From Pseudomonadota bacterium (GTDB lineage Bacteria; Desulfobacterota; Desulfobulbia; Desulfobulbales; Desulfocapsaceae): 64,000 nt of DNA. Made by a program: the position numbers and the translations under genes. The number at the start of each line of letters is the position of its first letter. Positions within the stretch are counted from its first letter, which is position 1. Of the stretch, positions 3,473 to 13,939 are shown piece by piece. The stretch lies in NCBI GenBank assembly GCA_018817385.1, contig JAHIUA010000077.1:1-64000 (forward strand), written 5' to 3'. The notes under the pieces are model-generated. The model was not told where the DNA came from and ran no database searches. It saw nothing but the letters and a program-made list of their open reading frames with translations.

Positions 3473-4472
3473 ACTGTTCGGCCAGAAGAAAATGTTTTCT
3501 TGCCTGCTCAAGACAGTGGTTGGCCGTTTTTCCATCCACCGCCGGATCACTGGCCGTAAACAGCCCGATTTTTCCTCGCACATATGCTCGGTAACACTTA
3601 TAAAAATCAAGCATCACCTTAAGGCCGGAATCTTCAGATTTTGCGACAAACTCCTCGATAAAATAGTGGGAGAGCCCCTCAAAACCATGGAAATCCAGAT
3701 CCATGGCCAGAAAAGCAACATCGGCAGCGACGTCGGTATAGCGAAAACGCTCATTAAACTCGATACAGTCAAAGATACAAACAGGATCTGCCAGGCAAAT
3801 GTTTGCTGAGTGCATATCGCCATGACAATCTCTGATTTTGCCATCATCAATACGTACCTGAAACCGATCTCCATGGCCAAGAAATTCTTTGGCATAGCTG
3901 CTGATGGCATCGAATTGGCCTCTATTGAGGGCCCCCTGACCGATAAAGGCCTCTGTCTGGGCAAAATTTTCCAGGACATTGACAGCAACGGAGCTGGCCT
4001 GCCCAAACTCCTGAATGGACTTGTCTCCTGCCGCCGCCTGATAGAAAGGAACCAGAGTATCAATGATGGCATCGATATGGGCCTGAGTTAACTGACCGGC
4101 GGCCATGATCCGACCCATCATTTTCTCTTCCGGCATTCTTTTCATCCTGATGCCATATTCCACAACATTTCCGGAACCATTGAGAGCAAACCCTTCACCC
4201 TCTTCAGTAACGGTGACCAGTTCTTCATAGATATCAGGACAGAGCCTGCGATTAAGCAGCAACTCCTGTTCACAAAAAAATTTCCTCTTTTCGAGGCTGG
4301 AAAAATTGAGGAAGCCAAAATCCACCGGTTTCTTCCATTTGTAGACAGAATCGCCTGCCAAAAAAACAAAGGAAATATGGGTCTGCACCAAGCTGATGTC
4401 CGCAGCAGGGTGCGGATAACTGCTTTCCTGGAGCAGGTAGCTGACATAGGCAGGAAGATTTGCTTCACTCAT
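3456..4472 (-). CDS. Aminoglycoside phosphotransferase-like kinase (COG2187-type)
   Basis: A 338-residue protein of the APH/choline-kinase fold. Visible motifs are the lysine region VYKWKKPVDFGFLNFSSLEKR (about 40-60), the catalytic-loop CHGDMHSANICL (about 216-227, HGD.H..N) and the metal-binding IFDCIEFNERFRYTD (about 233-247, where D replaces the first position of the DFG-like site). AAGGAG 6 nt before the ATG at 4472 fixes the start. It overlaps the downstream P-loop kinase by 17 nt. Together they correspond to the widespread fused APH/ATP-binding protein. Resistance is unlikely and the true substrate is unknown. Confidence 0.82.
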   Translation of the reverse strand: MSEANLPAYVSYLLQESSYPHPAADISLVQTHISFVFLAGDSVYKWKKPVDFGFLNFSSLEKRKFFCEQELLLNRRLCPDIYEELVTVTEEGEGFALNGSGNVVEYGIRMKRMPEEKMMGRIMAAGQLTQAHIDAIIDTLVPFYQAAAGDKSIQEFGQASSVAVNVLENFAQTEAFIGQGALNRGQFDAISSYAKEFLGHGDRFQVRIDDGKIRDCHGDMHSANICLADPVCIFDCIEFNERFRYTDVAADVAFLAMDLDFHGFEGLSHYFIEEFVAKSEDSGLKVMLDFYKCYRAYVRGKIGLFTASDPAVDGKTANHCLEQARKHFLLAEQYAAAK

Positions 4473-4835
4473 CAACAACTCCTTGTATTAAAATGATAAA
4501 AACAGAACCGGCTCGACCCGGATTACAAAAAAAGAACAGTGTACCAGAATCCCTCCTGAGAGTAAACTCTGGACAAAAGCTTTACCTTATTTTGTTATCA
4601 TGATACTTATCACTTTTAACATACTTATAAAAAGTGAAATTCTGAAATAATTCACCAGTGCTTGTCCATACCTGAGACAGTTTTTTCCTCAATCGAAGCC
4701 TTTGCCAACTCTTTAATAACGTACATGATTCATCTCCGAGGCGTAACTATTTGAGCAAGCCCCCCCCTGGACTCCGAGGGTGAAAAGAGAGCCACTATAC
4801 GCAGGCACTAACTAAAATTCTTCATCAGCTGCACC
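4473..4835. other. Divergent intergenic region
   Basis: This AT-rich region lies between the minus-strand phosphotransferase and plus-strand larB and should hold both promoters. I see no strong consensus promoter, no terminator and no convincing small gene in it. Confidence 0.4.
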
Positions 4836-9118: not shown

Positions 9119-9769
9119 ATGAAACTCAAAGTCGTCATCTTTGACTGCGACGGGGTCATGTTTGACTCCAAATTCGCCAATCAAACATACTACAATCAGC
9201 TCCTCCACCATTTCAACTACCCTCCCATGGATGAAGACGAACTGGAATTTGTCCATATCCACAATGTGATGGAGTCGACCCCCTACATCTTTCGTCACTA
9301 CCCCGCACAAGACCTGGGAGAAGTTGACCGCTACCGGCAAGCAATAGGCTACGCCCCTTTTCTCAAGTACATGCGCATGGAGGAGGATCTCGTTGAATTT
9401 CTCGACATCTGCAGATCACGTTACCAACTCGCCATCTCCACCAATCGAACCGACACCATGACCTCGATCCTGGATATCTTCCACCTCCGCGACTACTTCA
9501 CCAAGGTGATGACGGCAGAGAATGCAAAGCGTCCCAAGCCAGCACCCGATGCCTTACTGGAGATCCTCGCCCACTGTAACTGCCATGCGCAAGAGGCCAT
9601 CTATATCGGCGACTCCATCATCGACCGCCAACATTCAGAGGCCTGTAATATGCGGCTCATTGCCTTTAAAAACGCTGACCTTCCCGCAGACTACCATGTC
9701 TCGAGCTTCATGGATATTCTGAGCCTGCCTCCCTTTCTCGAGTCTCACGCTGAGTCCCTGAACTCATGA
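9119..9769 (+). CDS. HAD-superfamily phosphatase
   Basis: A 216-residue HAD hydrolase. Motif I is VIFDCDGVMFDS with both nucleophile and acid Asp (about 6-17), motif II is the AISTNR region (about 104-109), the motif III lysine is in KRPKPAPDAL (about 138-147) and motif IV is IYIGDSIIDRQHS (about 162-174). The helical cap follows motif I, as in phosphoglycolate phosphatase-like members. The substrate cannot be told from sequence. It follows the YkgJ gene after 92 nt, with a poor ribosome binding site. Its stop overlaps the convergent cNMP-binding gene by 6 bp. Confidence 0.85.
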   Translation: MKLKVVIFDCDGVMFDSKFANQTYYNQLLHHFNYPPMDEDELEFVHIHNVMESTPYIFRHYPAQDLGEVDRYRQAIGYAPFLKYMRMEEDLVEFLDICRSRYQLAISTNRTDTMTSILDIFHLRDYFTKVMTAENAKRPKPAPDALLEILAHCNCHAQEAIYIGDSIIDRQHSEACNMRLIAFKNADLPADYHVSSFMDILSLPPFLESHAESLNS

Positions 9770-10822
9770 CCTCTCTCCTGTTTCGTCAACCCGCTTAATT
9801 CCTTCCATGAGGAGCATCATAAAATCCCCGATCTCGGCAGAGCGCATCTCATCAGGTGAGAGTCCCGTGCTAAAGGCATAGCGTCCTTCCTTTTCTCCCA
9901 ACATGGCAAAGATGGCCTCCTGGTTGTTCTTTTCCCCATAATGGGCATTAATGACACAGCCTTCCCGGAAAGAAACCTTGGCCATTCCCTGGGGAAAATC
10001 AAGACTAAGAACACCTGTCTTTTTATTCATGTGAAAAATCTGAAAAAGTTCCGCGGGAGGCATTTCAGGAATCCAGCCACTCATACAGGCATCAAAGGTA
10101 TTAAAACGGGTCACGTTGGCTCGGCTCAACCGCTGGGCCAGGACCTTGGCCATGTACAACTGCAGTCCAGGAATTCGGTCAAGAAGCTTGCTGACATCAT
10201 CCCCGGAAATGGAAAGGACCTCAGCGTCTGTTATCGCCTTGACATCCGCCCCAGCGACATCACTGACAAGGTAGCTCATTTCACCACAAATTTCTCCAGG
10301 ACTGAGGGTGGCTATCACCAGCGAACCATCACTGACCACCATATTTCCGGAAAGAATGAGATACAGATAGCAAGAGCGCTGCCCCTTGCGAATAAGAGTA
10401 GCCCCGGAGTGTACCCGTTCTCGACGTAAGCGCTTAAGCACTCGCACAAGATCCGCTTCAGGTATCGCCTTGATCATAGGAAAATCGCGGATGCGGGCCA
10501 GCAACGACTCGGCTTCCGAGTCGAGTTCAGGCTGTGAAGGGATCAGACCAGCATCGTGGGCAGCTTGCTCAGATATGAGCTCGAACTTGATAAGACCTGT
10601 GCAGCCACTGCAACTAAAGACTCTTCCTTTTCCGACAGGTTCTGCGTCAGTATCAAGGAGACGAAAAAGGAGGCCTGTCATCTCTCTGACGAGAATCAGG
10701 CAGGTTGCCTTATTCTCGGGACAGGAGAGGCTTTTTTCGGAAAGGGACAGCAACTCCCCCCGTTCATAGAGGGGACAGTTATTGTCGGTAATTATCTTAA
10801 AATAGAGTTTGAACGTTTTCAT
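9764..10822 (-). CDS. Cyclic-nucleotide-binding domain protein with C-terminal DUF4388
   Basis: A 352-residue protein. A CAP-like cNMP-binding domain covers about 115-230 (IRKGQRSCYLYLILSGNMVV, then PGEICGEMSYLV). A C-terminal DUF4388/PATAN-like domain (about 250-345) contains PPAELFQIFHMNKKTGVL and CVINAHYGEKNNQEAIFAML. No DNA-binding helix-turn-helix is seen, so this is not a CRP-type regulator. DUF4388 is frequent in delta-proteobacterial signalling proteins, so I infer a signalling adaptor. The first 100 residues hold several cysteines and no domain I recognise. It converges on the HAD gene with a 6-bp overlap. Confidence 0.8.
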   Translation of the reverse strand: MKTFKLYFKIITDNNCPLYERGELLSLSEKSLSCPENKATCLILVREMTGLLFRLLDTDAEPVGKGRVFSCSGCTGLIKFELISEQAAHDAGLIPSQPELDSEAESLLARIRDFPMIKAIPEADLVRVLKRLRRERVHSGATLIRKGQRSCYLYLILSGNMVVSDGSLVIATLSPGEICGEMSYLVSDVAGADVKAITDAEVLSISGDDVSKLLDRIPGLQLYMAKVLAQRLSRANVTRFNTFDACMSGWIPEMPPAELFQIFHMNKKTGVLSLDFPQGMAKVSFREGCVINAHYGEKNNQEAIFAMLGEKEGRYAFSTGLSPDEMRSAEIGDFMMLLMEGIKRVDETGERS

Positions 10823-11106
10823 TGTTTATACTTTTACCATACTCTTTCTTTTGAGAAGGGAAAAATAAATTTTTTCCATCAATACACCATTTTTTTTGTA
10901 TTTTGCCTAAGGTACTTGGTATAGTCATTATTATTTGTCAACTCAGTTACAAAGAGTATTCCCTTCCTGACGTTGCCAATTGTGCTCACCTTTATCGACT
11001 CACTTCATTGACTGATACGGAGTAAGCAGGGTCTTATCAATTCAATCAACCTGAGAAAGCCTGCATTTGCCAGTTCGCCTTCTCCTTACACGACCAAATA
11101 ACCAGC
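10823..11106. other. Divergent intergenic region
   Basis: This AT-rich region lies between the cNMP-binding gene (minus) and the E2-like/TPR gene (plus). No clear consensus promoter, repeat or small gene could be supported. Confidence 0.4.
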
Positions 11107-13575
11107 ATGAGTCAAACTAGCAAGCAACTCGAAAACGTTTTTAAGGAAATAACATCTCACTTCAGCAACGTCTCACAAATTATTGTTACACCTGAAGAAG
11201 GAAACCCTCCTGAACAATACAAAGTCACCTACCATCTGCCAGGGGTCTGTAAGAATGATGAGGGGCAAGTCTATCCCTGTGACCAGCACGTAATTTCCAT
11301 AGCCCTTCCCTTTGGTTTCCCTCATTTCCCCCCTAATTGTCGTCCGGAAACCCCCATATTTCATCCTGATTTTGATTCTTCAGCGATATGTATCGGCGAT
11401 GCCTGGCAAGCTGACCAGTCCATTGTCAAGCTCATCCTTCATATCGGTCATATGATATCCGGAGAGATCTATTCACTCAACAATGCATTCAACGAAGAAG
11501 CCGCCGAATGGTACCAGGAGCACAGGGACCAGCTCCCCTTTGGTCAGCCTGCCTTTTCCGCTTCCCCAGCAAAACCTGCGGCCAAAGAAGCAGAAATTGA
11601 AATGGCTGAAATTGATATCCTCAGCGATGACGATTTCAGCCACTCCTTTTCCCTGGAAAAGGAAGAAGAATCCACTGGCAAAGAGAGCCCATCATCTCTT
11701 TCAGCAACCATTGACATAGACCGCCTGCGCATAGTAGCCAAACAAAAACGCTTCCATACCCTCTCCCAGGAACTGCAAGCCATCGACAGCCATTTCAATG
11801 GCCGGGAACAACTGGAAATCCAGACCCGGGAGGCCATGAACAAGGCCACGGCGCTCTACCGCGAGGCAGATGACCTGGAGCATCGAGGAGAACACAAAAA
11901 GGCCTTAGCCAAGTATCAGGCCGCTGGGGCAGTGGTCTCCGACTATCCCCTCCTTGAAGAAGCAAAAAAGAGGATTCAACAATCCCTTGATCTCTTAGGT
12001 GACTGGGTAACAGGAGAAAAAAACGAGATAGAAGCAGAAGGAAATGATGTAAGCGAGGACGATGCAGAATCTTCTCTCGAAGAAACCTCCTCCGCTCCTT
12101 CTTCAGCCAAGGGAGAAAGGACCTTTTATGAAGAAGAAAAAACCAGGGGGAGCCGCTGGCCACTCTACACCATAGGAGGTGGAAGTGTTGCCCTTCTAGT
12201 GACCCTTGTTCTCTCCTACTTTTCTCTCAGTTCCGGTTTAAAAGAGGCCCAAAAGAAGGTGAGTGAGTGCCGCACCATGTTGGAAGCCAACAATTTCAGT
12301 GGTGCAGAACAAAAATGCGTCGAAGCTCGCGACCTCATCTCCAGTGTCCAACTCATCAAACAGAATGAAAAGGAAATTCTGGCCGAGGAAATCCAAACCC
12401 TGCTGACATCAGAAAAACTTCGGCAGGGACTGGCAGGCAAGACATTGCTGGATGGAAAATTTGTCTCTGAATCAACAAAGGCATTAATTCTGACCTTTAA
12501 AGAGGCGAAAAACAACGGAGATACCCTCTTGCAACAGAAAATCTGGCAGGAAGCAATTCCCCATTATGAAAAGGCCCTGGAGGCAGCAAGCAAGACCACA
12601 GCCGTCGATCAGAAGCTGGTTGTTGAAATACGCAGGCAACTGTCACGTGCCCGTTTCAATTCCTTGATGCTGGCCGGAGAGAAATCTTTGTCCACCTCTG
12701 ATTGGCAAGGAGCCTCAAAACACTTCGCGCAGGCGCTGGAACTGGCCAAAACAGATCCGAACGTCCCCGTGGAAAACATTGCCCAGCTGGAAATTCTCTC
12801 AAATCAGACAAAATTCAACACCCTGCGCGATCAAGGAAAAGTCTTTTTCGACAACAATGAGTGGCTGGCGGCCCTGGAGACCTACGAGCAGGCCCAGAAA
12901 CTGGCTGCGCAACTGGAGCTCCCTGAAGCGGAGGCCATATCTGCCCTACATGAAAGTATTGCCCGAACTAAAATTTATATGACGGTGGAAAAAGGGCAAG
13001 AGGCCTTTGCTGCCACGCGTTGGGATGATGCCATCAGACAGTATGAACATGCCATTATTCTCCTCGAAGAAAACAGCAAACTCCTCACCCAGATAGACAC
13101 CAAGGACAGTCGAGATAAACTCTCCCGCATCATGCTCCACGCCTCTATCATCCGCGACAAACAGGATGTGGCAAAGCACCTTAAAGCGGAAAAGTACGGC
13201 CCCGCACTGGCAAAACTCCAAAACATTCAAAAATCCATTACTGCCAGCCCATTTGCGAAACAGCCTGAATTTCAAATCATTCTTCAAGAAATCTCCACTC
13301 AGATAGAGACGGCCCAAACGCAACTGCTCATTACAGACAAAAGCACATACCTCATCGACAACTTTAAAAAACTGTTTTTAAAACACTATCCTGCCGCCGC
13401 TCGCTCCACACTCAGCTCACCAAAAGTCGAGTATTTGAAAAATAGAGAAGGCAAATTGCTTTTCAGAATGCAGTGTACCGAGGAGAGTGGGGGCAGACCC
13501 ATACGATTGCAGATGAATTACCTCTTCACCCCAGCAACCGGTCAGTGGGAATTCTCCAATGATGAGGATCAATAA
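11107..13575 (+). CDS. Membrane protein: ubiquitin-E2-like domain, one TM helix, TPR-like repeats
   Basis: An 822-residue protein. Residues 1-145 resemble the ubiquitin-conjugating (UBC) fold. LPFGFPHFPP matches the E2 YPxxPP strand, FHPDF (85-89) stands where E2s have HPN, and Cys95 in AICIGDAW aligns with the E2 active-site cysteine. The helix IVKLILHIGHMI and AFNEEAAEWYQEH follow as in E2s. A charged linker and helical repeats reach residue 350. One membrane helix spans about 351-374. The remaining about 450 residues are TPR-like helical repeats with a small C-terminal domain. The topology predicts a cytoplasmic E2-like domain and a periplasmic TPR part. No E1, JAB or ubiquitin-like gene is adjacent. 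Function is unknown, and E2 activity is inference. Confidence 0.75.
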   Translation: MSQTSKQLENVFKEITSHFSNVSQIIVTPEEGNPPEQYKVTYHLPGVCKNDEGQVYPCDQHVISIALPFGFPHFPPNCRPETPIFHPDFDSSAICIGDAWQADQSIVKLILHIGHMISGEIYSLNNAFNEEAAEWYQEHRDQLPFGQPAFSASPAKPAAKEAEIEMAEIDILSDDDFSHSFSLEKEEESTGKESPSSLSATIDIDRLRIVAKQKRFHTLSQELQAIDSHFNGREQLEIQTREAMNKATALYREADDLEHRGEHKKALAKYQAAGAVVSDYPLLEEAKKRIQQSLDLLGDWVTGEKNEIEAEGNDVSEDDAESSLEETSSAPSSAKGERTFYEEEKTRGSRWPLYTIGGGSVALLVTLVLSYFSLSSGLKEAQKKVSECRTMLEANNFSGAEQKCVEARDLISSVQLIKQNEKEILAEEIQTLLTSEKLRQGLAGKTLLDGKFVSESTKALILTFKEAKNNGDTLLQQKIWQEAIPHYEKALEAASKTTAVDQKLVVEIRRQLSRARFNSLMLAGEKSLSTSDWQGASKHFAQALELAKTDPNVPVENIAQLEILSNQTKFNTLRDQGKVFFDNNEWLAALETYEQAQKLAAQLELPEAEAISALHESIARTKIYMTVEKGQEAFAATRWDDAIRQYEHAIILLEENSKLLTQIDTKDSRDKLSRIMLHASIIRDKQDVAKHLKAEKYGPALAKLQNIQKSITASPFAKQPEFQIILQEISTQIETAQTQLLITDKSTYLIDNFKKLFLKHYPAAARSTLSSPKVEYLKNREGKLLFRMQCTEESGGRPIRLQMNYLFTPATGQWEFSNDEDQ

Positions 13576-13616: not shown

Positions 13617-13865
13617 TTAATGATGGTGGTGATGGTGATGATCTGCTCTCTCCTTCCCTGCACCACCCGCTGCCATCAGCGCCTTTTCCAAACACTCTCC
13701 AACTGTCTCCATGGCAAGCAAAGCCGCAGCAAGATGTGAACTGATATCCTCTGTCGCTTTGCTCTGGGCAGCCAGTGTAGTCCATTTTCGACACTCTGCA
13801 GCATGACCGTGATTATGCTCAATCCAGTGTGGCAGCAATACCTGTAGTTTTTCTATCTCATTCAT
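13617..13865 (-). CDS. Small His-tailed protein paired with CooT (probable nickel handling)
   Basis: An 82-residue, mostly helical protein starting MNEIEKLQVLLPHWIEHN and ending in seven consecutive histidines. The start is fixed by GGAGGAG ahead of the ATG at 13865. Proteins with the LLPHWIEHN..HA..F/CRKW pattern are commonly found beside CooT in nickel-using anaerobes, so I infer metal binding or delivery. The natural poly-His tail is a plausible Ni(II) site. It lies 74 nt downstream of cooT on the same strand. The biochemical role is not established. Confidence 0.72.
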   Translation of the reverse strand: MNEIEKLQVLLPHWIEHNHGHAAECRKWTTLAAQSKATEDISSHLAAALLAMETVGECLEKALMAAGGAGKERADHHHHHHH

Positions 13866-13939
13866 CTCTTCTCCTCCAACTCTTTTTCTTGTCCAATGTC
13901 CTTTTCTTTTCGCCAAAGCAGAAAGCAAGGGCTGATTTG

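Follow-up and report, generated by a model that had tools for sequence, protein, structure and literature searches.

In eukaryotic UEV domains, such as those of Mms2/Uev1 and Tsg101, the E2 fold is kept without a catalytic cysteine being required, and plays a docking role. In bacteria, an E2 fold is carried by the CBASS Cap2 and Bil conjugation systems. Inactive, RWD-like E2 domains are also listed for bacterial polyUbl operons in Iyer 2006 (PMC1779556, row 6e). We describe here a gene from the window (the whole stretch of 64,000 nucleotides that was analysed), whose product combines an E2-like domain with a membrane segment and a TPR arm. Like the UEV domains, its family keeps the E2 fold without requiring the cysteine, but it is bacterial, fused to the membrane segment and the TPR arm, and no conserved conjugation partner was found adjacent to it. 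The RWD-like domains are likewise bacterial E2 folds devoid of the catalytic cysteine, but they belong to polyUbl or E1-JAB operons; the passages on them in PMC1779556 describe no membrane-TPR architecture, and the word “TPR” is absent from that text. Unlike the situation in CBASS Cap2 and Bil, no CD-NTase, E1 or JAB gene was recognised beside the gene. Bil, CBASS and other known defence systems were ruled out, since no PADLOC match was obtained and the contig has no ThiF or Prok-JAB match. No description of the UBC-membrane-TPR architecture came up in searches of an open-access library. A stand-alone, membrane-TPR form of the inactive E2 fold, spread through an order, appears to be new, and so is the head-to-head pairing of an E2-like gene with a PATAN/DUF4388 gene. 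The features of the locus are as follows.

11107..13575, + strand: gene of the 822-aa E2-like/TM/TPR protein, present as a single copy in its own genome
11107..11541, + strand: UBC (E2-like) domain, residues 1-145, predicted cytosolic (sequence and structure matches)
11362..11370, + strand: HPD motif, residues 86-88, replacing HPN (domain alignment)
11389..11391, + strand: codon of Cys95, the E2 catalytic cysteine position (alignment with PDB sequences)
11716..12009, + strand: helical stretch ahead of the membrane, residues 204-301 (full-length model)
12163..12219, + strand: membrane segment, residues 353-371 (hydropathy)
12232..13359, + strand: TPR helices, residues 376-751, predicted periplasmic (Pfam, model, topology)
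13360..13572, + strand: C-terminal helix and 4-strand domain, residues 752-822, with a nearly invariant Cys790 (model, alignment)
9764..10822, - strand: divergent partner gene, 352 aa, with a four-Cys N-domain, a cNMP_binding domain and DUF4388 (PATAN)
10571..10822, - strand: partner N-domain, its cysteines C16, C41, C71 and C74 invariant in 18 aligned sequences
10175..10420, - strand: partner cNMP-binding domain, residues 135-216, missing from the short partners of other lineages
9782..10078, - strand: partner DUF4388/PATAN domain, residues 249-347 (Pfam)
10823..11106, no strand: intergenic region between the divergent pair

An earlier note on this DNA had aligned residues 1-145 with ubiquitin-conjugating enzymes by eye, and this was borne out by sequence and structure searches alike. 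Pfam UQ_con (PF00179) matched residues 44-141 of the 822-aa protein (E 6.8e-7, 29.4 bits for a cut-off of 27), with a score of 33.2 bits when the N-terminal 158 aa were used alone. With phmmer, matches against PDB sequences were obtained to UBE2C (1.7e-5) and UBE2M (1.8e-5), and the E2 cysteine was aligned to Cys95 and the HPN motif to FHPD, just as had been claimed. The structure prediction proposed as a check, run with AlphaFold2 on residues 1-147 and eight sequences, gave a UBC fold (pLDDT 87.5, pTM 0.84). In a Foldseek search with this predicted domain, the best 50 of 863 matches were E2s or E2 complexes or fusions (best E 1.3e-6, TM 0.68), and the same was true with VIA for all 50 among the matches listed, for instance UBE2S (5bnb_C, Z 12.6, 133 residues, rmsd 3.4). 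A chance match is excluded, because all but one of 29 divergent members (28) have a UQ_con match of their own (E up to 0.01) while neither UQ_con (PF00179) nor the family was matched in any of 14 control genomes. The RWD model does not appear among the Pfam families listed for the window protein and the members. We concluded that sequence and structure agree on a UBC (E2) fold for residues 1-145.

In the full-length model (pLDDT 71.9), the UBC domain is followed by a disordered linker, then by helices at 204-301, a poorly modelled membrane region and helices at 376-751, and the chain ends with a helix and four strands at 753-817. The helical repeats of the earlier note are therefore present, and both TPR_2 and TPR_12 score above their Pfam cut-offs, but over nearer 375 residues than the 450 or so announced; the strand domain follows them and the helices of 204-301 come in addition. 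With regard to the helices ahead of the membrane, an MIT match, at whatever position, was present in 7 of 29 members. In NCBIfam, the helical parts gave weak matches far below cut-off (TraC, Amuc_1098 and one other). In a fold search with the full-length model, the matches listed were TPR or other helical-repeat proteins whose TM on the query did not exceed 0.12, and they gave no identity to the C-terminal strand domain.

As for the single membrane helix, claimed at 351-374, one hydrophobic segment was found at 353-371. Against the membrane-spanning scaffold that we favour below, this segment of the window protein is only moderately hydrophobic (mean hydropathy only 1.64), the model is poor in this region, and the bias in K/R residues is slight, with 4 in the 15 residues before the segment and 3 after. 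For the family, 2 of 108 proteins were dropped because they are shorter than 480 aa; of the 106 that remain, 101 have a single hydrophobic segment and 5 have two overlapping ones, and the side richer in K/R residues is the one before the segment in 90 cases and the one after it in 7. Because of this positive-inside bias across the family, we infer that the UBC domain is cytosolic and the TPR arm periplasmic.

From the order to which this genome belongs, 193 genomes were sampled out of a larger number, and the domain profile detected the gene in 114 of them, once each in all but two (G061, with two copies, and G157, with a broken copy in two pieces). The independent model PF00179 found matches in 111 of the 193 genomes, 54 of them over cut-off, at the same places as the domain profile, plus two small extra E2-like frames. 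Over the whole phylum, 13 of 395 sampled genomes matched, 3 of which lie outside the order, and follow-up searches matched 1 genome of 1 and 1 of 46. The named relatives belong to Desulfocapsa and Desulfopila. Conservation is highest in the UBC domain, with a median identity to the window of 0.45, compared to 0.35 for the C-terminal domain and 0.23 for the TPR (28 rows). The dN/dS ratios of the UBC domain were 0.15 and 0.19 versus two close relatives, and it is under purifying selection. Concerning the exceptions, G157 is rated 100% complete, and its gene (contig C102:2688-3085) seems broken, being in two pieces and containing two TAG; these two fragments were left out of the locus set. A shorter form of about 530 aa, devoid of the cysteine and of the usual neighbours, was seen at L007:9965-11578 and L120 (G061 contig C2), and G061 also has a full-length form with the cysteine on another contig.

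Conservation of Cys95 had been set beforehand as a refuting test for the proposal, made in the earlier note, of an orphan conjugation enzyme. Once 140 domain rows were merged into 115 distinct ones, position 95 was found to be a cysteine in only 54, the others being Arg (48), Lys (7), Ala (2), and Tyr, His, Pro or Ser (1 each). H86, P87 and W100 are invariant in all 115 rows, and residue 88, which corresponds to the asparagine of HPN, is Asp in 111, Ala in 3 and Glu in 1, never Asn; the 54 rows with a cysteine all carry HPD, not HPN. Counted over the 108 loci with flanks, Cys95 is present in 31 of the 35 f1 loci, in the single f6 locus and in 7 of the remaining 8 (the window and L001-L007; the last one has Arg), the 16 f3 loci are divided between Cys (7), Lys (7) and Arg (2), and 45 of the 48 f12 loci have Arg95. 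The f12 neighbourhood is kept (KdsD in 38 of 48 loci, HAD in 26, SecDF in 26, the partner in 30), and therefore most f12 genes are orthologues. On a quick tree built without column 95, with long branches and unsure places of the root and outgroups, the position must have switched at least 6 times between cysteine and another residue, and Arg or Lys was fixed in whole clades. Column 95 ranks 41st of 147 for constancy, so that some constraint acts on the position, though not everywhere in favour of a cysteine. The fold is thus kept while the cysteine is missing in whole clades, as in UEV domains, although the window protein itself still has it. Of the features of a catalytic E2, the UBC fold was found, but neither a family-wide cysteine, nor the HPN asparagine, nor, in the searches of the contig and of the 193 genomes given below, a linked or co-occurring dedicated E1/E3.

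The orphan conjugation enzyme was lowered accordingly, as homologues, syntenic orthologues included, lack the cysteine and the asparagine is replaced in every row. It can be restricted to the Cys lineages: Cys95 would take a ubiquitin-like protein from an E1 encoded elsewhere, either of the ThiF/MoeB type or unrecognised, and modify membrane proteins, the Arg and Lys lineages being secondary pseudoenzymes. The cysteine of most f1 and of 7 of the 16 f3 loci speaks for such an active enzyme, which we nevertheless hold to be unlikely: the HPN asparagine is replaced in every family row that has the cysteine, and a function common to the orthologues cannot depend on this residue, as the gene is widely maintained with Arg in its place. 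Alternatively, Cys95 could serve another chemistry (disulfide, persulfide or S-acyl switch) on a non-catalytic docking domain, in the sulfur-metabolising Desulfocapsaceae. The retention of the cysteine in f1 despite a damaged HPN, and the four invariant cysteines of the partner N-domain, would fit with this, but other families have Arg or Lys at the same position, and we consider this the least probable of the readings weighed here. The f1 loci do show more constancy at position 95 than a free position might, which counts against the scaffold.

A search of the window's own genome for conjugation partners found no ThiF, Prok-JAB or second UQ_con match on its contig (C27). The earlier remark that E1 and JAB genes are missing nearby therefore stands for the contig, but elsewhere the genome has a ThiF/E2-like fusion beside a JAB match. 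Four ThiF matches were over cut-off, on contigs C58, C63, C24 and C66, and JAB matches over cut-off were on C66, C71 and C70. On C66, a 594-residue protein has ThiF as its only Pfam match, in its C-terminal part, with a JAB match adjoining, and its N-terminus, read by eye, could be E2-like. The gene of this protein (L169:6522-8306) lies near a TraC-like ATPase, named by recognition, and an IrrE-type regulator. On C24, the ThiF-family frame (4117-4728) contains one in-frame TAG. A dependence of the gene on the E1-bearing fusion and JAB of its own genome was rejected, as the fusion was found in only 2 of the 193 genomes, one of them a partial match. The four ThiF-family matches nevertheless leave room for an unlinked E1 of this type and count in favour of an active enzyme in the Cys lineages; against it, besides the empty contig, Prok-RING_1 was over cut-off in none of the 193 genomes (10 weak matches were below).

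Outside the order, relatives of the domain were found in a different context. In L153 (domain profile 1.2e-38), an E2 with HPN and Cys is next to ThiF, JAB and Prok-RING_1 proteins, and in L155 (2.9e-8), such an E2 is next to ThiF, a weak RING match and a JAB below cut-off, in a cluster that also encodes an AAA protein of proteasomal type and a member of the Pup-ligase family. A Crinalium plasmid (NC_019754.1) has ThiF, two small proteins, an E2 with HPN and Cys, and a Mov34/MPN gene. With a search space of 5000, the family profile matched these three E2s at 7e-39 (L153), 1.5e-9 (L155) and 8e-16 (Crinalium). Judging from sequence and context, the two small Crinalium proteins may be ubiquitin-like; the small Crinalium ORFs matched no Pfam family, and the two proteins used as queries had no match in L153, L155, L154, L169 or L008. 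The operonic E2 is sporadic, 1 of 46 genomes being matched in the class of L153's genome. L154 (8.5e-35) is of another kind: this 1054-residue protein, also outside the order, is the one distant relative to combine a UBC domain with a hydrophobic segment (650-668) and weak matches to TPR, keeps HPN and lacks the cysteine, and no E1 was recognised nearby among the ORFs read, of at least 200 aa.

All three relatives with E1 and JAB (L153, L155, Crinalium) keep both HPN and Cys. Catalytic residues thus appear to accompany E1/JAB operons and to be incomplete in the stand-alone TPR forms, and the profile matches point to a common ancestry of our domain and the E2s of bacterial E1-(Ubl)-E2-(RING)-JAB operons. 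The domain was probably captured from such an operon before the families diverged, a direction that we infer. It is homologous to these operon E2s, which have HPN and Cys and lie beside ThiF and JAB, whereas members of the present family stand alone, have HPD and vary at the position of the cysteine. The cysteine of operonic relatives may be taken as a point for the active enzyme in the Cys lineages. Because Cys95 is variable, the HPN asparagine is replaced, no conjugation set was found on the contig and the operonic relatives keep their catalytic residues, the E2 domain of the family looks rather like one co-opted as a UEV-like pseudoenzyme. L155:7468-15737 encodes E1, E2, RING-like, JAB, AAA and Pup-ligase (7.4e-100) proteins, a mixed ubiquitin-like/pupylation-like cluster. 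L153:3904-14217 encodes, on one strand, E1, JAB, FHA-membrane, RING-like, E2, DnaJ-like, AAA and subtilisin-like proteins (DnaJ and subtilisin by recognition).

The gene divergent from the E2-like gene encodes a protein with a DUF4388 match (5.5e-19), a domain which we take to be PATAN. Cyanobacterial PATAN response regulators also have DUF4388, but the partner differs from them by its four-Cys N-domain, by its cNMP domain in part of the cases, and by the fact that no receiver match was reported in the domain search. A simple scan detected no sigma-70-type site in the intergenic region. A partner homologue is upstream and divergent in 80 of the 108 loci, within 1 kb in 79 of them. It is missing in 28; only 2 of the 28 have less than 1.5 kb of upstream sequence, the other 26 having over 2 kb or nearly that much, and therefore in 26 the partner is not adjacent. 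The recurrent neighbours are KdsD, SecDF, HAD, YkgJ-like, MetK and BirA-like genes, named partly by recognition. In f3, 14 of 16 loci have the partner and none has the KdsD, SecDF, HAD, YkgJ-like or MetK genes. Between the E2-like gene and KdsD, a small protein is encoded (13617-13928, - strand) that ends with seven histidines; its relatives, in 11 loci including the window, have a common core and His-rich tails, which suggests that the tail may bind metal.

A profile of the partner N-domain, built from linked copies, gave some match in 119 of the 193 genomes. With a threshold of 100 bits, set afterwards from a gap in the list, at least this score was reached in 86 genomes, all 86 of which carry the E2-like gene; 28 of the 114 gene-bearing genomes have no strong partner match, and 79 genomes have neither. 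In this count G178 and G168, where the partner adjoining the gene was read incompletely, were scored as lacking it. Weaker partner paralogues (about 70-96 bits) are more widespread. Pairing and co-occurrence are both inflated by shared ancestry, and the Fisher value is not to be taken at face value. Long partners, with the cNMP domain, are confined to f1, to the window and its named relatives, and to part of f3. The states of Cys95 and of the partner cNMP domain agree in 53 of 58 rows, but the tree offers only one or two pairs of independent changes, too few to support a link between the two, which was set aside.

The PATAN partner brings up another possibility, a regulator of type IV pili or surface motility, in which partner and scaffold would act on the pilus motor. 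In cyanobacteria, a link between PATAN proteins and the pilus motor PilB1 is described (PMC7690835), and a study of Myxococcus pili lists two PATAN proteins among those it took into account (PMC11580455). The cyanobacterial link argues for such a regulator, but no pilus gene was recognised among the recurrent neighbours looked at, and we regard it as an unlikely explanation.

On balance we lean towards a membrane-spanning scaffold, whose N-terminal E2 fold is UEV-like, without conjugation chemistry, and linked to a PATAN signal. From the sequence, its role is most likely to couple a cytosolic PATAN signal to the envelope. The cytosolic UBC domain would dock a protein, in the simplest case the divergent PATAN partner or its target, and the periplasmic TPR arm would hold an envelope component, so that a cytosolic signal could pass to the envelope side via the scaffold, or the reverse. 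The signal could be a cyclic nucleotide in lineages whose partner retains the cNMP domain. An E2-fold binding domain coupled to envelope sensing had already been suggested in the earlier note; the membrane segment and its bias, the purifying selection and the PATAN partner favour it, binding and sensing themselves being a proposal. Against the scaffold, the gene lacks an adjacent partner in 28 of 108 loci, and as 26 of these have enough upstream DNA, the scaffold persists there without it. We give only a slim chance to a more specific form of the active enzyme, in which the Cys-bearing Desulfocapsaceae protein would be a working, membrane-anchored E2, served by an unlinked or unrecognised E1 and placed under the control of a cyclic-nucleotide PATAN protein, while the sister families would be pseudoenzymes. 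If this were true, a natural enzyme-to-scaffold series would exist within a widespread bacterial gene.

If instead the scaffold is right, a bacterial E2 fold would have been freed from ubiquitin-like chemistry and, within a single order, have become established as a widespread gene, in parallel to eukaryotic UEV. The E2-like scaffold and its PATAN partner would then be a tractable case for the role of the E2 fold without conjugation, and the pair would also open a way to study DUF4388/PATAN in bacteria other than cyanobacteria.
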